A stretch of DNA of 64,000 bases, from positions 2,542,001-2,606,000 of the forward strand of contig NZ_CP029462.1 of assembly GCF_003367905.1 (NCBI RefSeq), given 5' to 3'. Each line of letters begins with the position of its first letter. The stretch's first letter is position 1. The DNA comes from Megasphaera stantonii (lineage in GTDB: Bacteria; Bacillota; Negativicutes; Veillonellales; Megasphaeraceae). Under the pieces are notes generated by a model. That model was not told the origin of the DNA. It saw only the letters and a program-made list of their open reading frames with translations, and did not search any database. The translations under genes and the position numbers were made by a program. Shown in pieces: positions 5,979-64,000 of the stretch.

Positions 5979-6137
5979 AAACAGAATGTATTTGAGGAAA
6001 GGGGGGTATGCGTAGTGCCACTTCTTTTTAGAATAATTTAAGGGTTAAGGGGAGATAATAGTTGATGACCAATGGAGAAATATACTATATAATAAAATAA
6101 TAAATAAGAAAAAGCATTTGCTAAAGGAGATGTTGAT

Positions 6138-6821
6138 ATGGCATCGAATAGTGTTTTGCTATACAGGATAGAACTTTATCGAGAATATCCTGTAGATGAC
6201 ATAGTAAGTAGGTTAGAAAGTAGCCTTTTAGATGAAACACGGATTATTGTAGACCACTACAATGAATTTTCCCTTGCTGGTATATACATATATTCAGAAA
6301 TATATAAGTCACAAGAATATAATTTTGAGACCAATGTTTTTGAGGTCGTTACCAGAAAAAAGTATGTGATTACAGAATTTCATATTGATTTTAAAAATCA
6401 TTTTATGGATATTTGGGGAAATACGAAAAATGCACAAAAAATAATTACTTCTTTATCTTTGGCGTTTGATAATCATATTGCGATAGAAGCTCTTGAAATG
6501 AAATTTACACGAATGATAGAGTATTTAAGCAAAGAAGAAGGGATATATGTCGGAAAAGTTACAGCACGGCAAGTCGTTTTAAGTGATGGCTTACTTGCGG
6601 ATTGTACTTTTAATTTATCTAATGAAGAAATGCCTTTTGAGATGATTGACAAGTACAAAAAAAACATTCAAAAAATTTCTTTTAAGTGGAAGTGTGAAGA
6701 ATTAGTGATTAGTATGGTTATACATATGTCAGGAGCTATTACTATCTATAAAACTCGCCGGATGCTTAACGATAATGAATTAGAATGTATATATAAAATG
6801 TTGTTATATGCTGGGAGGTAA
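6138..6821 (+). CDS. Hypothetical protein, first gene of AT-rich cassette
   Basis: The 227-residue protein is not recognised. It has no signal peptide or membrane segment, and consists of mixed alpha/beta sequence with acidic patches. AAAGGAGATG precedes the ATG with good spacing. The base composition is much lower in GC than the flanking operons and AT-ending codons prevail, which suggests horizontal transfer. It ends 5 bases before the nuclease-like gene, so the two are almost certainly cotranscribed. A role in the same system is inferred from position only. Confidence 0.75.
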   Translation: MASNSVLLYRIELYREYPVDDIVSRLESSLLDETRIIVDHYNEFSLAGIYIYSEIYKSQEYNFETNVFEVVTRKKYVITEFHIDFKNHFMDIWGNTKNAQKIITSLSLAFDNHIAIEALEMKFTRMIEYLSKEEGIYVGKVTARQVVLSDGLLADCTFNLSNEEMPFEMIDKYKKNIQKISFKWKCEELVISMVIHMSGAITIYKTRRMLNDNELECIYKMLLYAGR

Positions 6822-6826
6822 TTTGT

Positions 6827-7783
6827 GTGGGAGAAAACGCACAGAAGATAGGGAAAAAGTTAGAAATCTTGGGTGTTGATTTGTTAGGTATGTTTAAGTG
6901 GAATAAGAAAATGAGTGATAAAGAAATCAAATGTACTCGAAGTACACATAAAAATGCTGAGGGAAAGTCTAAGAAAACGCACGGAATAGATTTATATATG
7001 GAATACAATGATCCATATATTGGAGGTGTACAGGGAGTATTTATTGAATGTAAAAACAGAGTTTGGAGTGGTATTAATAAGACGCAAATCGAAAGTTGGG
7101 TTAATGAAGAGATTAATCTTATTGACTGCGCTCGCAATAATAGTGAGTTACAAGAATTTTATTCCGATGGAGCTGATAAGAATTGTGCGTTACTTTTAAT
7201 TAATTGTAATGATGAAAAGTTTAATCAAGCTAAGTTTGATGAATATTTATCAAACATTCAAATTCCAAATAAAAGAACTCCATATAAGGTTTTTATTGCA
7301 GGAAATAATATGATTGAAAAGTGGGATGCAATTGCTCGAATGATAAAAGAATCTTATCATGATGATCTAAGTGTTTTATATCCAAGCATTAATAATTCTC
7401 AGCCGATTTCAGAAAAATATTGGAGTATAAATCACTTATTTTCAAAATATGTTTTTTGTGAAACAAAAGAACAAGTTCCGGTTGGTCGTAATGGAGATAT
7501 TCATATTGATAGAGTTTTGGTAATTTTCTTTTTTGATAAAATTAATGCTGAAAGTTTCCAATATATGTGGAGCATGTGTAGATCTTTCCAATATGAAAAT
7601 CAATATGATGTGTTTGATATATGTTTTTGGACAGAGAGCAGAGATGAAAATAATTATATTACAGAGAATTTTATTACTATCTTGAGTAATTATGACGATG
7701 GAAAAGTATCGCAAGATATTATAGACACTATTAGAATAAAATTTTTGCTAAATAGGAAATTAAATCCTGTAGATAATCATTAA
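6827..7783 (+). CDS. PD-(D/E)XK nuclease-like protein, second gene of AT-rich cassette
   Basis: The start is GTG at 6827, with GGGAGG upstream. In the 318-residue product, an N-terminal helix (ENAQKIGKKLEILG) is followed by THGIDLYMEY with Asp55 and GVFIECKNR with Glu74-x-Lys76. This D...ExK spacing is the active-site pattern of the PD-(D/E)XK restriction-endonuclease fold. The N-terminal pattern reminds me of the GapS4a-type nucleases of the GAPS4 anti-phage system, a resemblance from memory that needs a profile search. The C-terminal half is unassigned. It is AT-rich like its neighbours and lies between them at 5 and 15 bases. Most likely a DNA-cleaving effector of a defence cassette; the fold is moderately supported and the role is inferred. 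Confidence 0.75.
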   Translation: MGENAQKIGKKLEILGVDLLGMFKWNKKMSDKEIKCTRSTHKNAEGKSKKTHGIDLYMEYNDPYIGGVQGVFIECKNRVWSGINKTQIESWVNEEINLIDCARNNSELQEFYSDGADKNCALLLINCNDEKFNQAKFDEYLSNIQIPNKRTPYKVFIAGNNMIEKWDAIARMIKESYHDDLSVLYPSINNSQPISEKYWSINHLFSKYVFCETKEQVPVGRNGDIHIDRVLVIFFFDKINAESFQYMWSMCRSFQYENQYDVFDICFWTESRDENNYITENFITILSNYDDGKVSQDIIDTIRIKFLLNRKLNPVDNH

Positions 7784-7798
7784 CTATGGAGTAAAAAA

Positions 7799-8890
7799 AT
7801 GGTATCGAAATATATTGATAATAAAGAACTTAAAAGAGTAATAGAAGATGGCAAACTAAAACCTTTTCGCATAAGAAAAATACTTAAAGATCAAGGTATT
7901 ATTCTTGCATCCAATAATCCAGAACAAATTGCAAAACAAGTGTATCCTATATTATGGGGAAGTTATGATATAGAAAACTTAAGTCAATCTTTGGATGACG
8001 AAAGTAATTATATAAAATCATCTGTTGTAGAAGTAGAGATTAAGAAATCTGATAATATTATAGATGAGTTAGAGGATTTTTTTTACAACGCTTCTTTCGG
8101 AATGACTCGTTACCGGCTTTCTGCTGTAAACCGAGTAGATGATGATCAACTGGTAGTTAAGTTGAGGTATACAATTAATCGGCCAGGAAGAAATGAATTT
8201 ATATCTACCCAACATAAAAATACGGATATTATTGTTAGAAAGGTTTCAGATGAAAAGGCAATTATTGATGTTAGACAAGCTTCTACGACAGAAATGAAAG
8301 AAATCAATAAATTTTTGGAGGAAGCGACAAAAAAGGATACAGCGGTACATACCCACCATATCACTTTGAGAGTTTTGACAAATGAGAATAAAATTGCTTT
8401 TTTCGATGAATTCATCAAAAAAAATTTTGCGGATTGGCGGTTTGAAACTGTGACAAAGGTAGAACTAAAGCGGTGTGAAGGATCTGAGGATGATGAAACT
8501 AGAGCGTTAGACGAAGAAGAAAGTTCTGCTTTATCAAATCTACAAGGAATTACAAGTGCCATTTTGAATGGGACTAGTATAAGAAATAATTCATTTGTAC
8601 AAGAATGCTTGCAGAATAATTTCTATATCACAACGATGGGATATAAATTTGAGAGCTTATCTGATTTGCGAAAAGTGGTTGTAGAAGTAAATTTTAAATA
8701 TGATGATTTGAAAATAGATATATGCAAGACATATGAGTATGATTCAGATTCTGAGGGACTTCGACTGCATCCAGCAATGCTAGATATACAGGAAGAAATA
8801 CTGAAAATGTTTCAAGAAGCTGCATATGAGCAGTATATTGAGATATTTGAACGACAGAAACAGAACGCTCAAAAAGCAGGGGTAAATTGA
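7799..8890 (+). CDS. Hypothetical protein, third gene of AT-rich cassette
   Basis: The 363-residue protein is not recognised. Residues about 8-50 (ELKRVIEDGKLKPFRIRKIL, then KDQGI and NNPEQIAKQVYPILWG) look like a small helix-extended-helix (SAP/HeH-like) module, a fold often used for nucleic-acid binding; this is a guess from pattern. A central beta-rich region and an acidic stretch (EDDETRALDEEESS, near 230-245) follow, with a helical C-terminus. The ribosome-binding site is weak (TATGGAGTAAAAAA). It is the last gene of the three-gene AT-rich cassette and has no visible signal peptide or membrane segment. Confidence 0.72.
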   Translation: MVSKYIDNKELKRVIEDGKLKPFRIRKILKDQGIILASNNPEQIAKQVYPILWGSYDIENLSQSLDDESNYIKSSVVEVEIKKSDNIIDELEDFFYNASFGMTRYRLSAVNRVDDDQLVVKLRYTINRPGRNEFISTQHKNTDIIVRKVSDEKAIIDVRQASTTEMKEINKFLEEATKKDTAVHTHHITLRVLTNENKIAFFDEFIKKNFADWRFETVTKVELKRCEGSEDDETRALDEEESSALSNLQGITSAILNGTSIRNNSFVQECLQNNFYITTMGYKFESLSDLRKVVVEVNFKYDDLKIDICKTYEYDSDSEGLRLHPAMLDIQEEILKMFQEAAYEQYIEIFERQKQNAQKAGVN

Positions 8891-9171
8891 TTTGGAAATT
8901 ATGATGAAGTTGCTTAAGATACTGCGTATAATTAAAAAAGCGTTGTAAGAAGACAAAAAAGATGACTAATATGCTGTGAGTAATAGATATTCCATAAAGA
9001 GCTGATATAATTGAGATTCGTAAAAGAATAAGTAACTCTCTTTTAAATGTTAGAAATAGTGCCAAACCGAATGAATATATTTATTTAGGAAAACGCAGAC
9101 ACGTTTTTGCAATTCCCATTCTGTTTCATAATTAGTAGTCAGAAATATTTACGCAAATGAAAAGTAGGTAG
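8891..9171. other. AT-rich spacer between cassette and IS elements
   Basis: About 280 bases without a convincing gene. A TTG-started 18-codon ORF at 8892-8948 would give a short hydrophobic, lysine-rich peptide (EIMMKLLKILRIIKKAL), but no good ribosome-binding site supports it. The stretch keeps the low GC of the cassette. Confidence 0.4.
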
Positions 9172-9357: not shown

Positions 9358-10838
9358 GACTATGTGAAGCTTTTTCTGTAAATAACTGCTAGGTATAGGT
9401 CTTCTATGATACAATCTAAATCATAGGAGGCTTAGTATCATGGCAAGAGAAAAGAAACCGGTACATAAGGTCATTATGACCGAAGGAAAACGCAGCATTA
9501 TTCAACAACTGTTTCAAGAATATGACATTCAATCCGCAGAAGATATTCAGGAAGCACTGAAAGACCTGCTGGGCGGTACCATCAAAGAAATGATGGAAAC
9601 CGAGATGGACGAACACCTTGGCTATCAGAAATCCCAGCGGTCTGACAGCGAGGATTACCGCAATGGGTATAAGAGAAAGCGGGTCAACAGCCGGTATGGT
9701 ACCGTAGATATCCAGGTACCGCAGGACCGCAACTCCACGTTCGAACCGCAGGTGGTCCGTAAACGGCAAAAAGATATCTCTTCTATCGACCAGAAAATTA
9801 TCTCCATGTATGCCAAGGGAATGACGACCCGGCAAATTTCAGAAACGTTAGAGGATATCTATGGATTTGAGGCTTCCGAAGGCTTCATTTCCGATGTAAC
9901 CGATAAAATCCTGCCTCAAATTGAAGACTGGCAGAAACGCCCGCTGTCGGAAGTGTATCCTGTCCTCTATATTGATGCCATTCATTATTCTGTCCGGGAT
10001 AACGGAGTGATCCGGAAGCTGGCAGCCTACGTCATTCTGGGAATCAACATAGACGGACAAAAAGAAGTTCTGACGATTCAGGTCGGAGACAATGAGAGCG
10101 CAAAATATTGGCTTTCCGTGCTGAATGAATTGAAAAATCGCGGGGTAAAAGATATCCTGATTCTCTGTGCCGATGGCCTGAGCGGGATCAAAGAAGCCAT
10201 CGCCGCAGCCTATCCTAACACGGAATACCAGCGCTGCATCGTACATCAGGTACGAAACACGCTGAAATATGTAGCAGACAAGGATCGTAAGCCTTTTGCC
10301 AATGATTTAAAGACTATTTATCAGGCTCCGTCTGAAGAACAGGCTTTGGAATCTCTGGAAAGGGTAACCAAAACATGGTCTGTAAAATATCCGAATTCCA
10401 TGAAAAGTTGGAAGCAAAACTGGGATGCCATCTGCCCAATTTTCAAGTTTTCCATGAACGTAAGAAAAGTGATTTACACGACCAATGCCATCGAATCCCT
10501 GAATTCCACCTACCGGAAGCTGAACCGTCAGAGAAGCGTATTTCCAAGCGATACAGCGCTTTTAAAAGCCCTGTATCTGGCGACGTTTGAAGCCACCAAA
10601 AAATGGACCATGCCAATCCGAAACTGGGGACAGGTGTATGGGGAACTGAGCATAATGTACGAAGGCCGACTCCCAGAGTAACGCATAGCTGGCAAAAGCA
10701 GGCGAAAATCCTGTCTGTACTTGACATGTTCAGCATGTGTTGTTATATATAAACCATGAGCTGAAAGTTCTCAAATTCGCTTTCAGCTTACCAAGTATCA
10801 TAGAAGATCTATGTTTACAGAGATTTTTTCACAGGCTC
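9358..10838 (+). mobile_element. IS256-family element B, copy 1 (complete)
   Basis: The 1481-bp element is flanked by the 8-bp direct repeat GTCCGGGA at 9350-9357 and 10839-10846, as expected for IS256-family transposition. The ends are imperfect inverted repeats: the left begins GACTATGTGAAGC and the right, read inward, GAGCCTGTGAAAA; both run into TGTAAA and later CTTCTATGATA. It carries one transposase gene. The second copy at 31956-33417 encodes an identical protein, so it moved or was duplicated recently. Confidence 0.92.
9440..10681 (+). CDS. IS256-family transposase (element B, copy 1)
   Basis: The 413-residue mutator-type DDE transposase has an N-terminal helical DNA-binding part (MTEGKRSIIQQLFQEYDIQS, EMDEHLGYQKS), a catalytic core with YIDAIHY, LCADGLSGIKEAI and YQRCIVHQVRN, and the C-terminal TTNAIESLNSTYRKLNRQR with the catalytic Glu. 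AGGAGG precedes the ATG. The protein is identical to that at 32019-33260. It looks complete and presumably active. Confidence 0.95.
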   Translation: MAREKKPVHKVIMTEGKRSIIQQLFQEYDIQSAEDIQEALKDLLGGTIKEMMETEMDEHLGYQKSQRSDSEDYRNGYKRKRVNSRYGTVDIQVPQDRNSTFEPQVVRKRQKDISSIDQKIISMYAKGMTTRQISETLEDIYGFEASEGFISDVTDKILPQIEDWQKRPLSEVYPVLYIDAIHYSVRDNGVIRKLAAYVILGINIDGQKEVLTIQVGDNESAKYWLSVLNELKNRGVKDILILCADGLSGIKEAIAAAYPNTEYQRCIVHQVRNTLKYVADKDRKPFANDLKTIYQAPSEEQALESLERVTKTWSVKYPNSMKSWKQNWDAICPIFKFSMNVRKVIYTTNAIESLNSTYRKLNRQRSVFPSDTALLKALYLATFEATKKWTMPIRNWGQVYGELSIMYEGRLPE

Positions 10839-26415: not shown

Positions 26416-29400
26416 ATGAACCGGATCTATAAAGTAATATGGAGTAAAGTAAAACATCAGTACGTCGTCGTGTCCGAGCTGGCTCATCGGGATGGAAAAC
26501 GGAGTAGTACGGCTGTGACAAGTAAAGCCACATGGCGCGCCTTGGCGGCAGCTCTTATGCTGACAGGTTCGTTGGTTGCTATGCCGTATGCTGGGTATGC
26601 TGCAGCGACAGGAGGAACGGCTACGTCTGGGCAGTATATTGCTGTGGCTGTAGATGGTGATAATAGTACATATACTACTACCGAGCAACAATGGGTTCCT
26701 GGTCATTTTGAGAACTGGCAGTGGGTTCCGGGACGTTATGAAGATGTAGAAGTAACAAAACCCTATGAAGAAGGCGAAACCCGGCAGTTTACAGATGCCA
26801 ATGGTAATGAACATGATTATACCTATGTAAAAGTTAAAGACGATAAAGGTGAATTCCATAATTACTGGGTTAGAGATGGATATACTATCACGATAGTTGA
26901 TCATCCGCGTTATGATGCAGTTGATGGAAGCGATGCTCCGGATAATACGTATGTTATTAACGCCACTAAAAACGATGGAGCGGACGACAGTGGTCTGATT
27001 TCTTCCAGTGAAGCCGTAATTACGGATGATACAAATCATACAACGCTTACGGGGAATCCGTTAAATCAGATTGATGCCGGCATGTACGGCGGCGCTGTCA
27101 ATACAGGCAGCCCAGTTACTCCAAAAAGTTATAACTACTACATCAATGATAATGGAAATGGCTATAGAGATGTAGGGAAGGATCATTGGAGTAGTACAAA
27201 TTTTAAAGCCGTTTACCAGCAAAGCGACGGCACGTACAATACCATGGAAGATGGCAGCGGAACAACGGTTTCCTCGGAAAATTTGTATGTCATTGATGGC
27301 GAACTGGGCGCATTTTTCAATAGCAATGGTACAGTTTATGACAAAGACAAGCAGGGATATATTTACGGTTATAACAATGAAATATTGATGACTGGTAGAG
27401 ATGAAAATGGTAAATACTACAGCTTCTGGGCAACAAAAATAGATGACCCGAATGCTTCTATGTCCAATATGACTATGGGCGATCATGAAAAAATAGTCAA
27501 TGCTCTTCATGACAGTATTTACACTGCCCAAGGCGATGACATTAAGAAAATTGACGTAGTTAAAGCGGAAAATGGTAATGGTGGCACAATTGGTTTAGTT
27601 CGTCAAGGTGATTGGGTCAGCGATGGACAAGGGAATGGATATTATCAAGAAACTGATCCTATTCCGGGAACTATCACCATCAGAAACACCGATAACAGCG
27701 GAAAAGACGGTCATGACGTTGCCATTCGGTTTGGATCTATAGATGAGGAAGGAAATGATATCGAAAAATTCACCGTAGATGCCGGCTCGAAAGTCGTAGG
27801 TAAAAATGGTGATGCTGTAGCTAATGAAGGAGACACCTTAACCAGCGTTGATATCAACGGTAAGAATTATAAACTTGGCGACGGCAAAACGTATACAGCG
27901 GGAGACAATATTACTATCAGTGATGATGTTATTTTTTCTACGGATTACCAGCTGATAGCCAATCCGACAGAAGGCAGTGACGGCAAGTATACGGTAGCAG
28001 ACGGCAAGGTAGAGTTAACCGTACAGAACGGGGACAATACGGAAGACCGTAACACCGTAACGATTGACGGCATAGCCAGCACAGCTGATGTAGCCAAGGC
28101 GACGTCGACTGTCACGGGCGACACCAATGTAAATGTAACGCCGGATACGACAGCAGAAGACGGCCACACAGAATACAAAGTCAGTCTGGAAGATGACATC
28201 TATCTGGGAGGCAGTCAAACGGCAGACAGCAACAACCTCTTCTTAGATGGTACGAATGGCTCGATTTACGCAGGCTCGTCGTCGGAGACCGGATTGTCGT
28301 TAACGGAGCTGACCGTACCATCAGCGGCTTGTCGAATATGACATGGACGCCGACTACGGTAGATTACAGCCAGTCCAATAAAGCGGCAACAGAAGCTCAG
28401 TTGAAAGCTGTCGCAGATTCGGATGGATATGTTACGAGCGCTACGTTAAACGGCAGTACACTGACTCTGGGAAGAAACCAGAATTTAGGAGATGTAACGG
28501 TAGATCTGGGTACATTAACTGAAGGCCTGAGCGGCACGGATTACCAGCTGATAGCCAATCCGACGGAAGGCAGTGACGGTAAATATACGGTAGCAGACGG
28601 CAAGGTAGAGTTAACCGTACAGAACGGGGACAATACGGAAGACCGTAACACCGTAACGATTGACGGCATAGCCAGCACAGCTGATGTAGCCAAGGCGACG
28701 TCGACTGTCACGGGCGACACCAATGTAAATGTAACGCCGGATACGACAGCAGAAGACGGCCACACAGAATACAAAGTCAGTCTGGAAGATGACATCTATC
28801 TGGGAGGCAGTCAAACGGCAGACAGCAACAACCTCTTCTTAGATGGTACGAATGGCTCGATTTACGCAGGCTCGTCGTCGGGAGACCGGATTGTCGTTAA
28901 CGGAGCTGACCGTACCATCAGCGGCTTGTCGAATATGACATGGACGCCGACTACGGTAGATTACAGCCAGTCCAATAAAGCGGCAACAGAAGCTCAGTTG
29001 AAAGCTGTCGCAGATTCGGATGGATATGTTACGAGCGCTACGTTAAACGGCAGTACACTGACTCTGGGAAGAAACCAGAATTTAGGAGATGTAACGGTAG
29101 ATCTGGGTACATTAACTGAAGGCCTGAGCGGCACGGATTACCAGCTGATAGCCAATCCGACGGAAGGCAGTGACGGTAAATATACGGTAGCAGACGGCAA
29201 GGTAGAGTTAACCGTACAGAACGGGGACAATACGGAAGACCGTAACACCGTAACGATTGACGGCATAGCCAGCACAGCTGATGTAGCCAAGGCGACGTCG
29301 ACTGTCACGGGCGACACCAATGTAAATGTAACGCCGGATACGACGGCCGAAGACGGCCACACAGAATACAAAGTCAGCCTGGAAGATGATATCTATCTGG

Positions 29401-31193
29401 GAGGCAGCCAGACGGCAGACAGCAACAACCTCTTCTTGGACGGCACGAACGGCTCGATTTACGCAGGCTCGTCGTCGGGCGAACGGGTTGTCATTAACGG
29501 AGCTGACCGTACTATTAGCGGCTTGTCGAATATGACATGGACGCCGACTACGGTAGATTACAGCACGTCCAATAAAGCGGCAACGGAAGCCCAGTTGTCA
29601 CAGGCAATCTCGAATGCTACCTCTGAAATGACTGCTAGTGATCAGCATTTAGTGGCTAATCCTGATGGTGGCAATTATGCTGTCAATAAAGAAACAGGAG
29701 ATGTAACCTTAAAAGTTCAATATAAGGATGAACAAGGAAATACGAAATATCATGATGTGACAATTGAAGATGTAGCATCTAAAGCCAATTTGGACGCATT
29801 GGAAAGTATTGTTGGCGATGGAAATTATATTAAACCTGGTGAAACAGGTAATGTTGTCAATAATGATATGAATGTGACAGAAGCTATTGGTGCATTGGAT
29901 GGTGCTATTGCCAATGCTGCGGCAAATGCTAATAAACATAGCTCTGTTCATGGTGGTAGTAATATTTCTGTTACTGAAGGAACAAATCCAGATTTTGAAG
30001 GCGGAAAAGACTATGTTGTTTCTCTGAATGACCATATTACTTTAGGTGATAAGGAACAGGGGACTTATGTAGATGTCAATGGAGAAGACGGAACTGTGAC
30101 GGCTTCCGGCAATATCAGCGCAGGCTCCTTCAAGACTGATAATATTACAATTAACGGAATTGGAGCAGACGGTAAGCATACCGGTACTATTACGGGTTTG
30201 TCCAACACGACTTGGAACAAAGATGTTGCTGATGCAATTGCGGCTAATGCTAACGGCGAAGCCGGTACGGCGGCAACGCAGGGACAGTTGCAGCAGGCTA
30301 TGAGCACGACTGTTCAATATGACACTAAAGACGGCTCGGTGGATAAAGGCAGCATTACCTTTGAAGGCGAAAACGGTACGACGCTGAAGAATGTAGCTGC
30401 TGGTGAAGTTTCTGCTACGTCGACACAGGCTGTCAACGGTAGTCAGTTGTGGCAGACGAACCAGGCTGTTATCAACAACAGCCAGAACATCCAGATGCTC
30501 AGCAACTCCGTCAACAAGCTGGATAACCGTATCGACCGCGTCGGCGCTGGTGCAGCGGCCTTGGCGGCCTTGCATCCCCTTGATTTCGACCCGGATGCGA
30601 AGTGGGACTTCGCCGCAGGCTATGGCAATTACCGCGGTGCGAACGCTGTGGCTGTCGGCGCGTACTATCGTCCCAATGAAGACGTCATGTTCAGCGTCGG
30701 CGGTTCCATGGGCGGCGGCGAAAACATGGTCAACGCCGGCGTATCCTTGAAGATCGGCGCAGGTTCCAGCAACGTCACGACGTCCCGCGTCGCCATGGCT
30801 AAGGAAATCAAATCCATGCGCGATATTGTAGCCAAGCAGGACGCCCAGATTCAGAAATTGACGGCCATGGTCAATGCATTAGTCGGCGTACAGACCGAAA
30901 CGGATTCGTCCATGTTCCCGGACGTGCCGGAAAACCACTGGGCTTATGAAGCTGTGGAAGCCATGGCCAAGAGCGGCTTGGTCAAGGGCTATCCTGACGG
31001 CGAATTCAAGGGCGACCGCACGATGACCCGCTATGAATTTGCCCAGATCGTCTACAACGCCATTCAGGCCGGCGCAGAAGTAGACGCTCGTCTGGTAGAA
31101 GAATTTAAGCCGGAATTACAGTTCTTCCACATCGCGACGGTGGCGAAGGACAAAGACGGCAACCCGACGATTGAACGGGTACGGGCTAACTAA
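26416..31193 (+). pseudogene. YadA-like trimeric autotransporter adhesin with C-terminal SLH domain, frameshifted
   Basis: Two overlapping frames, 26416-28341 (641 codons) and 28329-31193 (954 codons), form one gene broken by loss of one G near 28284. Restoring it gives exactly 1592 residues. The N-terminus (MNRIYKVIWSKVKHQYVVVSE) is an extended signal peptide (ESPR) followed by a hydrophobic core and an AYA-type site. The passenger has a WVPGHFENWQWVPG region and three long repeats of 199 residues. Near the C-terminus come the neck and YadA anchor (ATSTQAVNGSQLWQTN, then NRIDRVGAGAAALAALHPL and VAVGAYYRP), then a coiled coil and one SLH domain (FPDVPENHWAYEAVEAMAKS, KGYPDGEFKGDRTMTRYEFA). 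It would be a surface adhesin. AAGGAGG precedes the ATG. The break may be real, phase-variable, or a sequencing/assembly error in a repeat. Confidence 0.9.
27943..29588 (+). repeat. Three tandem near-identical 597-bp repeats in the adhesin gene
   Basis: Units start at 27943, 28539 and 29136, each at GATTACCAGCTGATAGCC. The first spans 596 bp because of the one-base deletion, the second 597 bp, and the third is cut short where the sequence diverges after about 29588. Differences between units are scattered single bases, so recent duplication or gene conversion is likely. Confidence 0.93.
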
Positions 31194-59163: not shown

Positions 59164-59214
59164 TATTCTGAACCTGTTATGATACGCAGTAATTGAATGA
59201 TCAGGAGGAACAGT

Positions 59215-59604
59215 ATGCGCATATATGTAAATGGAGAAGAACGAAATCTGCATGTGTACGACAAAATTGCCGGCGTAGATTATGCCAAAAACGTCATCTG
59301 TGCCCAGGACCGTCTGGATACGGACGATTTCGGCGCGTTTACGATGACCGAGGAAGAATTTGAATACTGGCGCAAGCTTCTCGTCACCTTGCAGGATTCG
59401 GAAGATATCCGCTTTGCCATTAAGGATCTGGTCGATGAAGAAGAATTAAGCGACTATGTTTACGAAGAAACGAAATACGTCACCCAGACGCAGCAAATTA
59501 TTGAAGTAGAAAACCTGAGCCTTAAAGATCTGCAGAAGGCCCTGACGGAAAAGAATACGGCTTGGCTGAAGGAAAACGGTTTCGTCAAGACCTTGGAAAA
59601 ATAG
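59215..59604 (+). CDS. Hypothetical protein (129 residues)
   Basis: CAGGAGGAAC precedes the ATG at 59215. The protein is acidic and helical after a short beta start (RIYVNGEERNLHVYDKIAGV, FGAFTMTEEEFEYWRKLLVT, EELSDYVYEETKYVTQTQQI). There is no signal peptide. No family is recognised. Codon use matches the core genome, so it is probably a conserved lineage gene. Confidence 0.75.
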   Translation: MRIYVNGEERNLHVYDKIAGVDYAKNVICAQDRLDTDDFGAFTMTEEEFEYWRKLLVTLQDSEDIRFAIKDLVDEEELSDYVYEETKYVTQTQQIIEVENLSLKDLQKALTEKNTAWLKENGFVKTLEK

Positions 59605-60082: not shown

Positions 60083-60088
60083 ATAAAT

Positions 60089-60196
60089 GTAGTAATTATA
60101 TCTTAGCGAGAGATACTAGGTTATTACAATAAGGTCCAACGTAGTTGGTACCGCAAAGCTCTAACGGTATGCCTTTTGGCATACCGTTATCTTTTT
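60089..60196 (+). ncRNA. tracrRNA of the type II-C CRISPR-Cas system
   Basis: The region reads like the Neisseria meningitidis tracrRNA. An anti-repeat (about 60092-60128) ends in TTACAATAAGG; then comes a nexus hairpin CCAAC-GTA-GTTGG (60136-60148), the conserved ACCGCAAAGCTCTAAC, and a strong terminator stem AACGGTATGCC/GGCATACCGTT with T-run (60163-60196). It lies immediately upstream of cas9 on the same strand. It would pair with the crRNA repeat and bind Cas9. The repeat itself is outside the window. Confidence 0.85.
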
Positions 60197-60230
60197 ATAC
60201 AGACTTATTTTGGAGACAGGGAGTGATCAT

Positions 60231-63200
60231 ATGAATTATGTATTAGGCTTAGATATTGGGATTACATCCGTGGGGTGGGCTGTCTTGGAATTAGATACAC
60301 ACGATGAACCCATACGTATTGTCGATTTAAACTCCCGCATCTTTGAAAAAGCAGAAGTGCCGAAGACGGGGGAATCCTTGGCTGCGCCGCGGCGGATGGC
60401 GCGCAGTGCTCGTCGGCTGACAAGACGGCGTCGGTTTCGGCTTCATCGCGTGAGGCGATATTTGATTCGAAATCGTATACTTGATGCGCGACAGGTTGAA
60501 GAGTTGTATGTTGATTCGATAGGAAAAACAGATATTTACGAACTGCGGTATCAAGCGTTAAGCCAACCAGTTTCCAACTCAGATTGGGCCAGACTGCTGA
60601 TTTTCTTTGCTAAGCACCGCGGTTTCAAATCCAATCGGAAACATATCAGCGACAGCGGCGATGAAGGCCAGATGCTGAATGCTATTACGGAAAATCAAGA
60701 GATTCTGAACAACTATCACACCGTTGGCGAAATGCTGTATAAAAACGAAAAATTTAAAGCCTGTAAACGAAATAAAGGCGGCTCTTATGCATTTACTGTC
60801 AGTCGGGATATGCTGGCTGATGAAATTCATGCCTTGTTTGACGTACAGCGGAGTCTAGGACAAGCCTATGCGTCAGAGGAATTAGAAGAAGAATATATGG
60901 AGCTATTTTCAGCACAGCGCAATTTTGATGAAGGTCCCGGTATGAACAGTCCATATAGCGGAAACCAAATTGAAAAAATGATCGGCTGTTGCACCTTTGA
61001 AGACGATGAAAAACGAGCGCCTAAAGCCAGCTATGCTTTTATGGCTTTTAATGTATGGCAAAAGATTAATCATCTTCGCGTAACCTGTGAAGGAACAGAT
61101 CGCTCTTTATCACAGGCGGAAAAAGAAACGTTGGCTGCACTCGCTTGGAAAAAAGAAAATATCACTTTTAAAGATATTCGCAATAAGCTTGGACTGGATG
61201 ATACAGTTCGATTTTTAGATGTAAATTATAATTTAGACAAATATAAAACGGCAGAAGAAGCCGAGAAGAAGGTAAAATTTAGCTGGGTCAAAGAATATCA
61301 TGCGATTCGCAAAGCTTTGGATAAGGTGAAAAAAGACCGTATTTCAGAATTAAGCCATGAGCAGATTGATACCATTGCCTATGCGTTTACTGTCTACAAA
61401 AATGATGAAGCCATTAAAAGATATTTGCTGGAACATGCTATTGAACTGGCTGACGCTGAAGCTTTATTAGAAAACATATCGGGATTCAGTAAATTTGGCC
61501 ACTTGTCGGTCAAGGCATGCTATAAGCTGCTGGAGCCCCTGCAGCAGGGCCATGTATATACCAAAGCTTGCGAAATTGCCGGATACGATCCGCAGAAAAG
61601 TAATCAGGAAAATATCAGTGATATCCCGAATCCAGTAGTAAAACGGGCGTTGAGTCAGGCTTTGAAAGTTATTAAGGCGATTATCCGGCAATATGGATGC
61701 CCCCCTGTGGAAATTCATATTGAATTAGCCCGCGAGCTGGCTAAAAGCGCAAAAGAACGGACAGTGCTAGAGAAGGCTATGAAGGACAATCAATCCCGCA
61801 ACGAAAAAATCAAAACTAAGCTCCATGAACTGAACGTCATGCAGCCGACGGGGCTGGATATTGTCAAGTATAAGTTATACGAACAACAACAGGGCGACTG
61901 CGCTTATTCGCAGAAGAAGTTCGATGTGAATCGTCTGCTTCATGATCCCACCTATGCAGAAGTAGATCACATTATTCCGTATAGCCGTTCTTTTGATGAT
62001 ACATACCGCAACAAGGTATTGGTATTGACGAAAGAAAACCGGGACAAAGGCAATCGGACGCCTATGGAATATTTTCAAGATAAGCCGGAGCGGAAAGAAG
62101 CGTTTATCAACTGGGTAAAGCGTACGATTTCTGATGGGAAAAAACGAAATAATTTACTGCGCGTCAATTATTCTGCTGACGCTGAAAAAGAATGGAAAGA
62201 TAGACATCTGCAGGATACGCAGTATATCAGCCGGTACTTATATAATTATTTGAAACGGCATATTGAATTAAAAGAAGGATATACAGACAGAAAACGACGC
62301 ATTATTCCTGTCAACGGTGCTGTGACAGCATATGTCCGCAAACGGCTGGGTATTTCTAAAATTCGCGAAAACGGAGACTTGCATCATGCCGTGGACGCCG
62401 TTATTATTGCCTGTGTGACTCAAGGCGTAGTCAATAAGATTTCCCGCTACAGCAAAATAAAAGAGCTGCGGCAGTTCATGACGGCAGACGGTATGATTGT
62501 TGACAAAGAAACAGGAGAAGTACTGCAGACTACCAATCCGCGTAAAACAGATCCCTTCCCCGAACCATGGCCGAAATTCCGTCAGGAATTGGAAGCTCGG
62601 GTCAGCGACAATCCGGCAGAAGCGATTGCAGCGCTGGGGCTGCCGACATATAAAGGCATTGTCAATATTTCCGCGCCTTTTGTCTCACGCATGCCTAACC
62701 GTAAGGTTCACGGGCCGGCGCACGCAGACACTATTCGTAGTCCTAAATTGCGTAAAGAGGGCTATGTAATATCTAAAACAACGTTATCTAAATTAAAATT
62801 GAAGAATGGCGAAATAGAGGGCTATTATAATCCTTCTAGCGATAGACTTCTTTATGAAGCATTGAAACAACGACTAGAGGCTTTTGGCGGAGATGGGAAA
62901 AAGGCTTTTAAAGAACCGTTTTATAAACCTAAGGCAGATGGAACATTCGGAGCAGAAGTTAAAAAAGTAAAGTTGATAGAAGCGGCTACGTTGTTGGTAT
63001 CTGTAAATAATGGTAAAGGTGTAGCTCAGAATGATTCCAACAATGGAATGGTTCGTGTTGATGTGTTTGGTGTCGATGAAAATGGAAAACTTGGATACTA
63101 TTTTGTTCCTATATATGTTGCAGATACAATAAGAGATATTCTGCCTAATAAGGCGATAATTCAAGGTAAAAAATATACTGATTGGAAAGTTATGAAAGAT

Positions 63201-63500
63201 GATGATTTTCTGTTTTCTCTATATTCAAATGATTTAATTTATATTGAATCTGCTAAAGAAATTGTCTTACATACTATAAAAGAGAGTACGTTACCATCTG
63301 ATTATAATATAAAAAAAGGTTTCTTGTATTATAAAGGGACTCACGGACGTAATGCAACTCTTACAGTAGTTAATCATGATGGAACCTATACAAAAGGCAG
63401 TATGGGGGCCAAAGGGTTACTCTGTCTAAAGAAATGTACAGTAGATGTTTTAGGCAATATACATTACGTGAAAAAAGAAAGACGATTAGGATTTAAATGA
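60231..63500 (+). CDS. cas9: CRISPR-associated endonuclease Cas9, type II-C
   Basis: The ATG at 60231 follows AGGGAGTG; an in-frame ATG at 60210 lacks a site. At 1089 residues it has the compact II-C size. RuvC-I (LGLDIGITSVGWAVLE, Asp8) is followed by an Arg-rich bridge helix (RRMARSARRLTRRRRFRLHR), a short REC lobe, RuvC-II (HIELAREL, Glu498), HNH (EVDHIIPYSRSFDDTYRNKV, catalytic His580) and RuvC-III (DLHHAVDAVII, Asp722). The C-terminal wedge/PAM-interacting part matches the Neisseria Cas9 pattern (YEALKQRLEAFGG, MVRVDVFGVDENGK). All catalytic residues are present, so it should cut DNA. From about 62745 the DNA becomes markedly more AT-rich. Confidence 0.96.
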   Translation: MNYVLGLDIGITSVGWAVLELDTHDEPIRIVDLNSRIFEKAEVPKTGESLAAPRRMARSARRLTRRRRFRLHRVRRYLIRNRILDARQVEELYVDSIGKTDIYELRYQALSQPVSNSDWARLLIFFAKHRGFKSNRKHISDSGDEGQMLNAITENQEILNNYHTVGEMLYKNEKFKACKRNKGGSYAFTVSRDMLADEIHALFDVQRSLGQAYASEELEEEYMELFSAQRNFDEGPGMNSPYSGNQIEKMIGCCTFEDDEKRAPKASYAFMAFNVWQKINHLRVTCEGTDRSLSQAEKETLAALAWKKENITFKDIRNKLGLDDTVRFLDVNYNLDKYKTAEEAEKKVKFSWVKEYHAIRKALDKVKKDRISELSHEQIDTIAYAFTVYKNDEAIKRYLLEHAIELADAEALLENISGFSKFGHLSVKACYKLLEPLQQGHVYTKACEIAGYDPQKSNQENISDIPNPVVKRALSQALKVIKAIIRQYGCPPVEIHIELARELAKSAKERTVLEKAMKDNQSRNEKIKTKLHELNVMQPTGLDIVKYKLYEQQQGDCAYSQKKFDVNRLLHDPTYAEVDHIIPYSRSFDDTYRNKVLVLTKENRDKGNRTPMEYFQDKPERKEAFINWVKRTISDGKKRNNLLRVNYSADAEKEWKDRHLQDTQYISRYLYNYLKRHIELKEGYTDRKRRIIPVNGAVTAYVRKRLGISKIRENGDLHHAVDAVIIACVTQGVVNKISRYSKIKELRQFMTADGMIVDKETGEVLQTTNPRKTDPFPEPWPKFRQELEARVSDNPAEAIAALGLPTYKGIVNISAPFVSRMPNRKVHGPAHADTIRSPKLRKEGYVISKTTLSKLKLKNGEIEGYYNPSSDRLLYEALKQRLEAFGGDGKKAFKEPFYKPKADGTFGAEVKKVKLIEAATLLVSVNNGKGVAQNDSNNGMVRVDVFGVDENGKLGYYFVPIYVADTIRDILPNKAIIQGKKYTDWKVMKDDDFLFSLYSNDLIYIESAKEIVLHTIKESTLPSDYNIKKGFLYYKGTHGRNATLTVVNHDGTYTKGSMGAKGLLCLKKCTVDVLGNIHYVKKERRLGFK

Positions 63501-63514
63501 AAGTGTGATGCAGA

Positions 63515-64000
63515 ATGTATCAACATATCGTCATAGAAAGTGGTGCAAAGTTATATCAGAAAAACAGCCAGCTTTTTATAGAAGCTGAACAGATTCATCA
63601 TATTCCCATAGAAGATATCGCTACGCTGCTGTTAGATAATCGCCGTATTGCAATTACGGGGTATTGTTTGGAAACAGTAGTAAAAAACGGCGCTGTCGTC
63701 ATATTGTGCAACGAGAAACACTTGCCCAGCGCCGTTATGCTGCCATTTGCGGCTAATTCCCGGCGACTGAAGATGATAAATCTGCAGGTAGGGCAGACCA
63801 GGCCGCGGAAAAAGCAGCTCTGGAAACAGATCATACAGCAGAAGATTTATAATCAGGGACGGTGTCTGGAACTGTGCGGAAAAGAAAATGTAGTCAAAAA
63901 GTTTATAGATAAGGTTAAATCCGGCGACAGCACAAACGCTGAAGGAACTGCGGCGGCAGCGTACTTTAAAGCCTTATATGGAGACGAGTTTATTCGCCAT
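63515..64000 (+). CDS. cas1: CRISPR-associated endonuclease Cas1 (3' end outside window)
   Basis: The frame runs open from ATG 63515 to the window edge (162 codons), 14 bases after cas9. It reads YQHIVIESGAKLYQKNSQLF, IPIEDIATLLLDN and RRIAITGYCLE at the N-terminus, and KSGDSTNAEGTAAAAYFKAL followed by YGDEFIR, which holds the conserved catalytic Glu of Cas1. Cas1 integrates new spacers with Cas2, which should follow beyond the window together with the repeat array. Confidence 0.95.
   Translation, partial: MYQHIVIESGAKLYQKNSQLFIEAEQIHHIPIEDIATLLLDNRRIAITGYCLETVVKNGAVVILCNEKHLPSAVMLPFAANSRRLKMINLQVGQTRPRKKQLWKQIIQQKIYNQGRCLELCGKENVVKKFIDKVKSGDSTNAEGTAAAAYFKALYGDEFIRH

Follow-up and report, generated by a model that had tools for sequence, protein, structure and literature searches.

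The choice of the protospacer adjacent motif (PAM) limits which phages are open to attack by Cas9, and in type II-C Cas9 proteins both natural and engineered differences of the PAM-reading domains are already known. According to the accessible parts of the respective reports, Nme1Cas9 and Nme2Cas9 are 98% identical outside the wedge (WED) and PAM-interacting (PI) domains (PMC10874451, PMC10636962), the Cas9 variants of Flavobacterium psychrophilum vary mainly at the C-terminus (PMC10309648), and WED and PI are likewise the variable part of Mollicutes Cas9 (PMC6882279). Here, we describe the cas9 gene of Megasphaera stantonii, located on a stretch of 64,000 nucleotides (the window; contig NZ_CP029462.1, positions 2,542,001 to 2,606,000), in which the GC content at third codon positions (GC3) drops sharply at the junction of RuvC and WED. 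The best reading of this break, to which we assign a probability of about 0.55, is that the WED and PI cassette has been replaced by recombination. Among the titles and abstract openings listed, with most subscription journals lying outside the coverage, none dealt with a scar of this kind, i.e., one in the base composition of the PI-coding part of cas9. The features concerned are the following:

60231–63500, + strand: cas9, type II-C-like, 1089 amino acids, intact (TIGR01865, 779 bits over residues 3–1076 at a cut-off of 100; Pfam HNH_4, RuvC_III and Cas9_RuvC)
60231–62729, + strand: cas9 residues 1–833, nuclease and recognition parts, GC3 0.43
62718–62844, + strand: break interval (codons 829–871, within 2 log-likelihood units), where the conserved FVSRMP..AH..TIRS motif ends
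62730–63616, + strand: best AT-rich segment, GC3 0.22, comprising WED and PI of Cas9, the cas9–cas1 junction and 34 cas1 codons
63515–64000, + strand: cas1, type II, running beyond the end of the window (TIGR03639; locus L096)

The composition break in cas9

GC3, used as a clean measure of the break, has a value of 0.43 up to codon 833 of cas9, corresponding to nucleotide 62730, and of 0.21 beyond it. The log-likelihood gain of this best change-point is 21.1, as compared to no more than 7.7 when the order of the codons was shuffled 300 times. Upon permutation of synonymous codons only, the observed GC3 difference of 0.219 was reached in none of 5000 cases (null mean 0.015, standard deviation 0.033, maximum 0.127); hence, the amino-acid content is not the cause. 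The break reported in an earlier note on this DNA is, thus, real and stronger than that note could show. Its position had been given as 62745, which is near the best point of 62730 (interval 62718–62844) without coinciding with it. The accompanying statement that GC is at least about 50% up to the break is correct only for the 240-base windows at 60280–60519 and about 62440–62800, while the other pre-break windows of cas9, past the AT-rich upstream region, range from 34% to 48%.

As had been proposed, the break coincides with the start of the wedge/PAM-interacting part of the protein: the tract begins at the RuvC/WED junction and, by alignment with GeoCas9, contains WED and PI. The conserved FVSRMP..AH..TIRS motif ends at the break, and both the open reading frame (ORF) and the conserved C-terminal residues are intact across it. 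In the predicted structural model (mean predicted local distance difference test score, pLDDT, 83.7; predicted template modelling score 0.59), the linker residues 830–832 have a pLDDT below 50. Solved type II-C Cas9s, which were also compared by Foldseek, can be superposed on the model over the greater part of its chain, i.e., over 848 residues for BlCas9 (root mean square deviation 3.4) and 831 residues for ThermoCas9 (4.2).

A scan for a single low-GC3 segment over cas9 and cas1 returned 62730–63616 with a gain of 23.8, and the same segment was obtained with cas2 in frame (gain 22.5). The compositional edge is sharp on the left (62718–62844) and loose on the right, where the interval within 2 log-likelihood units reaches from 63383 to 63697; given this width, the tract may, but need not, cross the cas9–cas1 boundary. 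Third-position base counts are alike in residues 1–833 and in cas1 from codon 35 onward (p = 0.85), whereas those in the portion of the tract belonging to cas9 are unlike both residues 1–833 (p = 6e-9) and cas1 (p = 6e-8), so that the tract sits between two blocks of equal composition.

The deficit does not depend on protein conservation. Across the break, GC3 changes from 0.48 (n = 233) to 0.20 (n = 81) at conserved residues, from 0.44 to 0.24 at intermediate residues and from 0.39 (n = 340) to 0.21 (n = 86) at variable residues. Since conserved residues should have kept the GC3 of the gene if fast residue turnover were the explanation, rapid protein evolution is ruled out as the sole cause of the low GC3.

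The step in the genome, in the family and in a related pair

For comparison with the own genome, 192 mechanical, uncurated ORFs of at least 300 amino acids were taken from the window and from 19 other 20-kb stretches. A gain of 10 is reached by 13 of them, and a gain of at least 20.9 by five, i.e., this cas9, three YadA-type adhesins and one sodium symporter, the step of which falls on the earliest codon the test allows; a phosphoesterase gene is next at 20.5. The occurrence of three of the five strongest steps in YadA-type adhesins was counted in favour of a replacement in cas9. Within the window, a YadA-type adhesin with an SLH domain (28329–31190) changes in GC3 from 0.46 to 0.72 at codon 705, and steps are also present in the YadA-type genes at L104 and L114 (L-numbers denote loci of relatives or of the own genome).

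The family comparison comprised 78 cas9 genes, i.e., that of Megasphaera plus 77 with a product of 1000 amino acids or more, after duplicates and shorter fragments had been dropped. At the homologous break, the GC3 step of Megasphaera is the largest of all 78 (0.219; mean of the other 77, 0.022, standard deviation 0.051, maximum 0.18). With the break chosen for each gene individually, L030 surpasses Megasphaera (gain 28.4 versus 21.1) and L070 equals it (20.8), the breaks of both being placed near Megasphaera residues 974–975.

Regional divergence was computed for 10 pairs of relatives with at least 78% identity in residues 1–833, and the five closest pairs were scanned for their most divergent tract. 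In L025/L030, two Clostridiales assemblies (SUG1050, SUG867), this tract corresponds to Megasphaera residues 994–1062 and lies over the PAM-contact residues; nucleotide identity is 0.60 within it and 0.91 outside. The synonymous-codon difference amounts to 0.57 in the tract (40 codons) versus 0.18 in the 909 codons preceding it, and GC3 inside versus outside is 0.32 versus 0.75 in L030 and 0.57 versus 0.74 in L025. Synonymous and protein divergence thus rise together, as predicted by replacement but not by selection alone. The pair L020/L021 is a weaker case, with a tract at residues 1025–1066 (identity 0.61 versus 0.86; synonymous difference 0.54 in 26 codons versus 0.30), and in the remaining three of the five pairs, the most distinct tract is found elsewhere.

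Proposed replacement of the WED and PI cassette and rival explanations

From the composition of the Megasphaera tract together with the analogous tract in the related pair, we infer recombination as the most likely cause; the direction of replacement, the donor and any change of PAM, which the earlier note regarded as a way to follow phage escape, are conjectural. An AT-richer 3′ segment of a type II-C cas9, about 0.65–0.97 kb in length, starting at the RuvC/WED junction and ending either with cas9 or within the first cas1 codons, would have replaced the resident one through recombination between related cas9–cas1 loci, with the left crossover in or near the stretch coding for the conserved FVSRMP..AH..TIRS motif. 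The outcome would be an intact chimeric Cas9, in which the resident RuvC, HNH and recognition parts hold the guide RNA and cut, while the imported WED and PI read the PAM. The donor may have been of Selenomonad type or from an unsampled lineage, in either case of lower GC. The suggestion of the earlier note that the C-terminal part may have been swapped by recombination is partly upheld, as far as composition is concerned, i.e., by a tract that starts at the RuvC/WED junction, is unlike both neighbours, is AT-rich at conserved residues, too, and has an analogue in L025/L030; it finds no backing from a donor or from a conflict of trees.

The points that weigh against replacement concern donors, trees and the composition of the cas9 3′ end in the family. 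No donor was found for the Megasphaera tract among the 77 relatives compared, where the best identity in the C part is 58%, nor for the L030 tract, for which the best match in the set over Megasphaera residues 985–1065 is still L025 (63%), followed by 58%. Among 15 genomes of the genus, this cas9 was found in the own genome only, a second genome giving a weak partial match of 27% over 263 residues, and among 61 genomes of the order, this cas9 was again confined to the own genome, apart from one partial match of 33% over 767 residues. Of 380 genomes of the class, 12, including the own one, have a match at E ≤ 1e-80. The closest genes over residues 1–833 are four from Selenomonads at 52–55%, with a fifth (L011) at 49%. 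Of the four records of the phage collection with a match, one extends over 80% or more of the protein, at 44.3%, and among plasmids, seven of 60 do so, the best at 46.2%. Searches of genome and viral contigs with single-protein patterns confirmed no close relatives, and C-part alignment in viral contigs yielded none.

The separate phylogenies of the N- and C-terminal parts, which the earlier note had suggested as a check, do not disagree, and replacement is neither backed nor refuted by them, the C part having little power. In FastTree trees of each part, Megasphaera groups with the Selenomonads (clade support 0.995 for N and 0.852 for C). For a placement test, the Megasphaera sequence was put on the branches of a backbone of the 77 relatives and evaluated by the approximately unbiased (AU) test, with N comprising residues 1–829 and C residues 838–1089. 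Seven of the 61 branches tested (out of 152) survive for the N part, all at or within the Selenomonad clade. For the C part, with all 152 branches tested, the best is the same branch as for the N part (sister to L005 and L006) and 41 survive; on a C-only backbone, the best branch is L004+L007, which is also Selenomonad, and 38 of 152 survive. The placements of the two parts are, hence, without supported conflict, the C part being poorly resolved and the test of low power, and a conflict of trees as proof of a swap was not found. A tree constrained to unite Megasphaera with L016 and L087 is 640 units worse on the N part; this constraint is unnatural and was not used as evidence. Most relatives stem from a scan for C-part motifs, by which only motif-bearing loci are findable and from which 80 of 193 confirmed loci were taken; relatives of the N part may, therefore, be under-sampled in the backbone. 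A hint in the direction opposite to the agreement of the trees may be seen in the identity to 69 non-Selenomonad Cas9s (the distant L003, L012 and L014 left out), which is 45.9% in N and 53.3% in C, an excess of 7.4 points, as compared to −2.1 to +3.6 points for the five Selenomonad relatives by the same measure; across all taxa, this excess ranks only sixth of 75.

As regards composition, GC3 in the last 100 codons of the 77 homologues is lower than in the rest of the gene by a mean of 0.071, with a drop in 82% of them, and in the 23 homologues with GC3 above 0.5, the mean drop is 0.137. The control values are 0.007 in 140 other ORFs of the same loci and 0.003 in 180 ORFs of the own genome. 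This weakens the uniqueness of the Megasphaera tract, the right edge of which may coincide with the end of cas9 or lie inside its last ~40 codons, and it points to something special about the PI end of the gene in the family as a whole. It is, thus, conceivable, if unlikely, that no replacement took place and that a regional mutational or selective effect, such as a signal for cas1 or a rapid evolution of PI that leaves AT-ending codons, makes the cas9 3′ end AT-rich in the family. The family drop is confined to the last one or two bins of 60 codons and extends to conserved residues (GC3 0.650 in N, 0.683 in WED and 0.542 in PI); WED, at about 0.65–0.68, is not depressed in the 23 GC3-rich homologues. 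The composition step is, in other words, shared by relatives inasmuch as a drop at the 3′ end is common, yet theirs is smaller, mostly begins ~140 codons later and spares WED, while the deficit in Megasphaera takes in WED and is the same at conserved residues. The jump of synonymous divergence in L025/L030 also argues against a purely regional effect. An internal promoter or other signal for cas1 is not supported, given three promoter-like sites versus a mean of 4.1 in shuffles and two terminator-like sites versus 0.7.

Somewhat less probable still is a course of events in the opposite direction, according to which the operon arrived AT-rich and the tract is an old remnant, the N-terminal 2.5 kb and the greater part of cas1 having subsequently been replaced or having approached the composition of the host by drift. 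Consistent with this, the GC3 of cas2 is 0.34 at a mean of 0.63 for the 192 sampled ORFs, and the low-GC relatives L005–L008 are low in GC3 in both parts; however, drift should act evenly and would leave no sharp left edge, and two separate replacements would be required. Chance or amino-acid composition is very improbable: short segments do vary, with earlier 50-codon blocks of cas9 ranging in GC3 from 0.26 to 0.60, but no test supports it and the 5000 synonymous permutations refute it as the sole cause. An assembly chimera is the least credible explanation in view of the single-contig genome of 99.95% completeness and the ORF and conserved C-terminal residues that continue intact over the break.

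PAM reading, locus context and comparison with described systems

The PAM-base contacts of GeoCas9 are N961, D1017, N1020 and R1035 (accessible part of PMC11658890). Two of these positions were followed into the Megasphaera protein by hand counting along a phmmer alignment, in which GeoCas9 N1020 aligns with N1041 and D1017 with H1038:

63342–63344, + strand: codon of H1038, aligned with GeoCas9 D1017

In GeoCas9 and ThermoCas9, PAM position 5 is C and D1017 contacts a PAM base (PMC11658890, accessible part), whereas Megasphaera carries H at the aligned residue. For relatives of Nme1Cas9, the accessible part of PMC9433092 links the residue at the position of H1024 to PAM position 5, which is a purine with H or N and C with D. 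If GeoCas9 D1017, Nme1Cas9 H1024 and Megasphaera H1038 are equivalent, as we presume, H1038 would predict a purine at PAM position 5. Across the 78 aligned rows, the residue in this column is D 24 times, G 23 times, N 21 times and H four times, the remainder being other states. On the N-part tree, it requires 37 changes; 141 columns of like entropy average 25.5, and 1% of them reach 37. Within close pairs, it differs in L025/L030 (N/D), L020/L021 (D/S) and both L048/L055 and L005/L006 (D/N); as the most distinct tract of L048/L055 sits elsewhere, single substitutions can change the residue, too.

At locus L096, the gene order is cas9, cas1, cas2, a transposase gene on the opposite strand and an array of clustered regularly interspaced short palindromic repeats (CRISPR), which is composed of ten 36-bp repeats, the final one degenerate, and nine 30-bp spacers. 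The Cas9 family model, the HNH and RuvC domains and the catalytic-site residues D8, E498, D579, H580, N603, H719 and D722, each present in 77 or 78 of the 78 rows, are all found in Megasphaera, in accordance with a type II-C Cas9 locus; these residues we take to be those acting in RuvC and HNH. The transposase gene between cas2 and the array (L096:8673–9662, − strand; Pfam HTH_38 and rve), presumably IS30-like, overlaps with its ORF end the ORF end of cas2 by 28 bases. Ahead of cas9 lies a likely trans-activating CRISPR RNA (tracrRNA), judged by a repeat-like stretch, a strong hairpin and a T-run:

60086–60197, + strand: putative tracrRNA, with a repeat-like anti-repeat at 60086–60129, followed by a hairpin and a T-run

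In the own genome, the array DNA matches 2602086–2602129 on the + strand at 84%, which is the anti-repeat, and the fold of 60100–60200 has a z-score of −4.35; an Rfam search gave no match at 60086–60197. The ORF preceding the putative tracrRNA (59197–59604) is without Pfam match, gatC lies 3′ of the array, and csn2 and cas4 may be lacking from the locus, the search having covered part of the small ORFs. Elsewhere in the window, an AT-rich island (6001–9000, 28–33% GC) contains three ORFs (6138–6821, 6827–7783, 7799–8890) without a Pfam match at E ≤ 0.001 and adjoins a Mutator-family transposase (9440–10681).

Spacer S8 is identical in 29 of 30 bases to 2105017–2105046 of the own genome (L125:15017–15046), located in a resident phage-like region, with the 3′ flank AATCGATT. 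A regulator-like phage gene, situated upstream of the terminase and portal genes, contains the target; with the orientation taken from the putative tracrRNA, the mismatch is on the PAM-distal side. The G at position 5 of the flank would agree with the purine predicted from H1038, a single site proving nothing, and a changed PAM as the reason why the cell tolerates this target is, consequently, not supported. Among seven small ORFs of the phage region, no anti-CRISPR family was named by NCBIfam, which is a thin test. A part-length scan of viral contigs with six of the nine spacers (S1, S2, S3, S6, S7 and S8) gave a match for S8 only; since this contig is 100% identical to the own prophage region over 13 kb, it is no independent protospacer. 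The whole array returned three weak matches against phages (E 2–8) and one array-like and one weak match against plasmids. In the 61 genomes of the order, it found nothing beyond S8 in the own genome and a match to S7 with six mismatches.

As a tentative generalization, which we regard as possible though doubtful, type II-C cas9 genes of gut and rumen Firmicutes might recurrently exchange the 3′ cassette that reads the PAM. Such exchanges would repeatedly switch the residue responsible for PAM position 5 (D, N, G, H, S) while the nuclease is otherwise stable, and the AT-rich third positions that remain as a scar would be visible without a sampled donor. Megasphaera would then represent a large event of this kind, in which WED and PI, and perhaps the start of cas1 along with them, were transferred as one piece. 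If the PAM cassette is mobile apart from the nuclease, a single event could alter the target range of a lineage. Both the composition scar and the jump of synonymous divergence as in L025/L030 would then serve as a handle for counting such events in public genomes and for picking natural chimeras.

Compared with described systems, GeoCas9 and ThermoCas9 (PDB 8uza, 9ar4) are full-length sequence homologues of the Megasphaera protein and among the best solved folds, and share its layout of WED and PI. Nme1Cas9 and Nme2Cas9 of Neisseria meningitidis are likewise of type II-C, and according to the accessible parts of the reports, PAM-domain swaps alter the PAM in engineered chimeras (PMC10874451, PMC10636962); they are, however, two full genes close enough for direct comparison, whereas the Megasphaera case rests on composition, without a close relative. 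Fp1Cas9 and Fp2Cas9 of F. psychrophilum are natural type II-C variants for which an altered PAM-interacting domain is suggested by the authors, and the locus of one isolate has transposase genes; unlike the Megasphaera gene, they are within-species variants of known strains, and a compositional tract is not mentioned in the accessible part of that report (PMC10309648).

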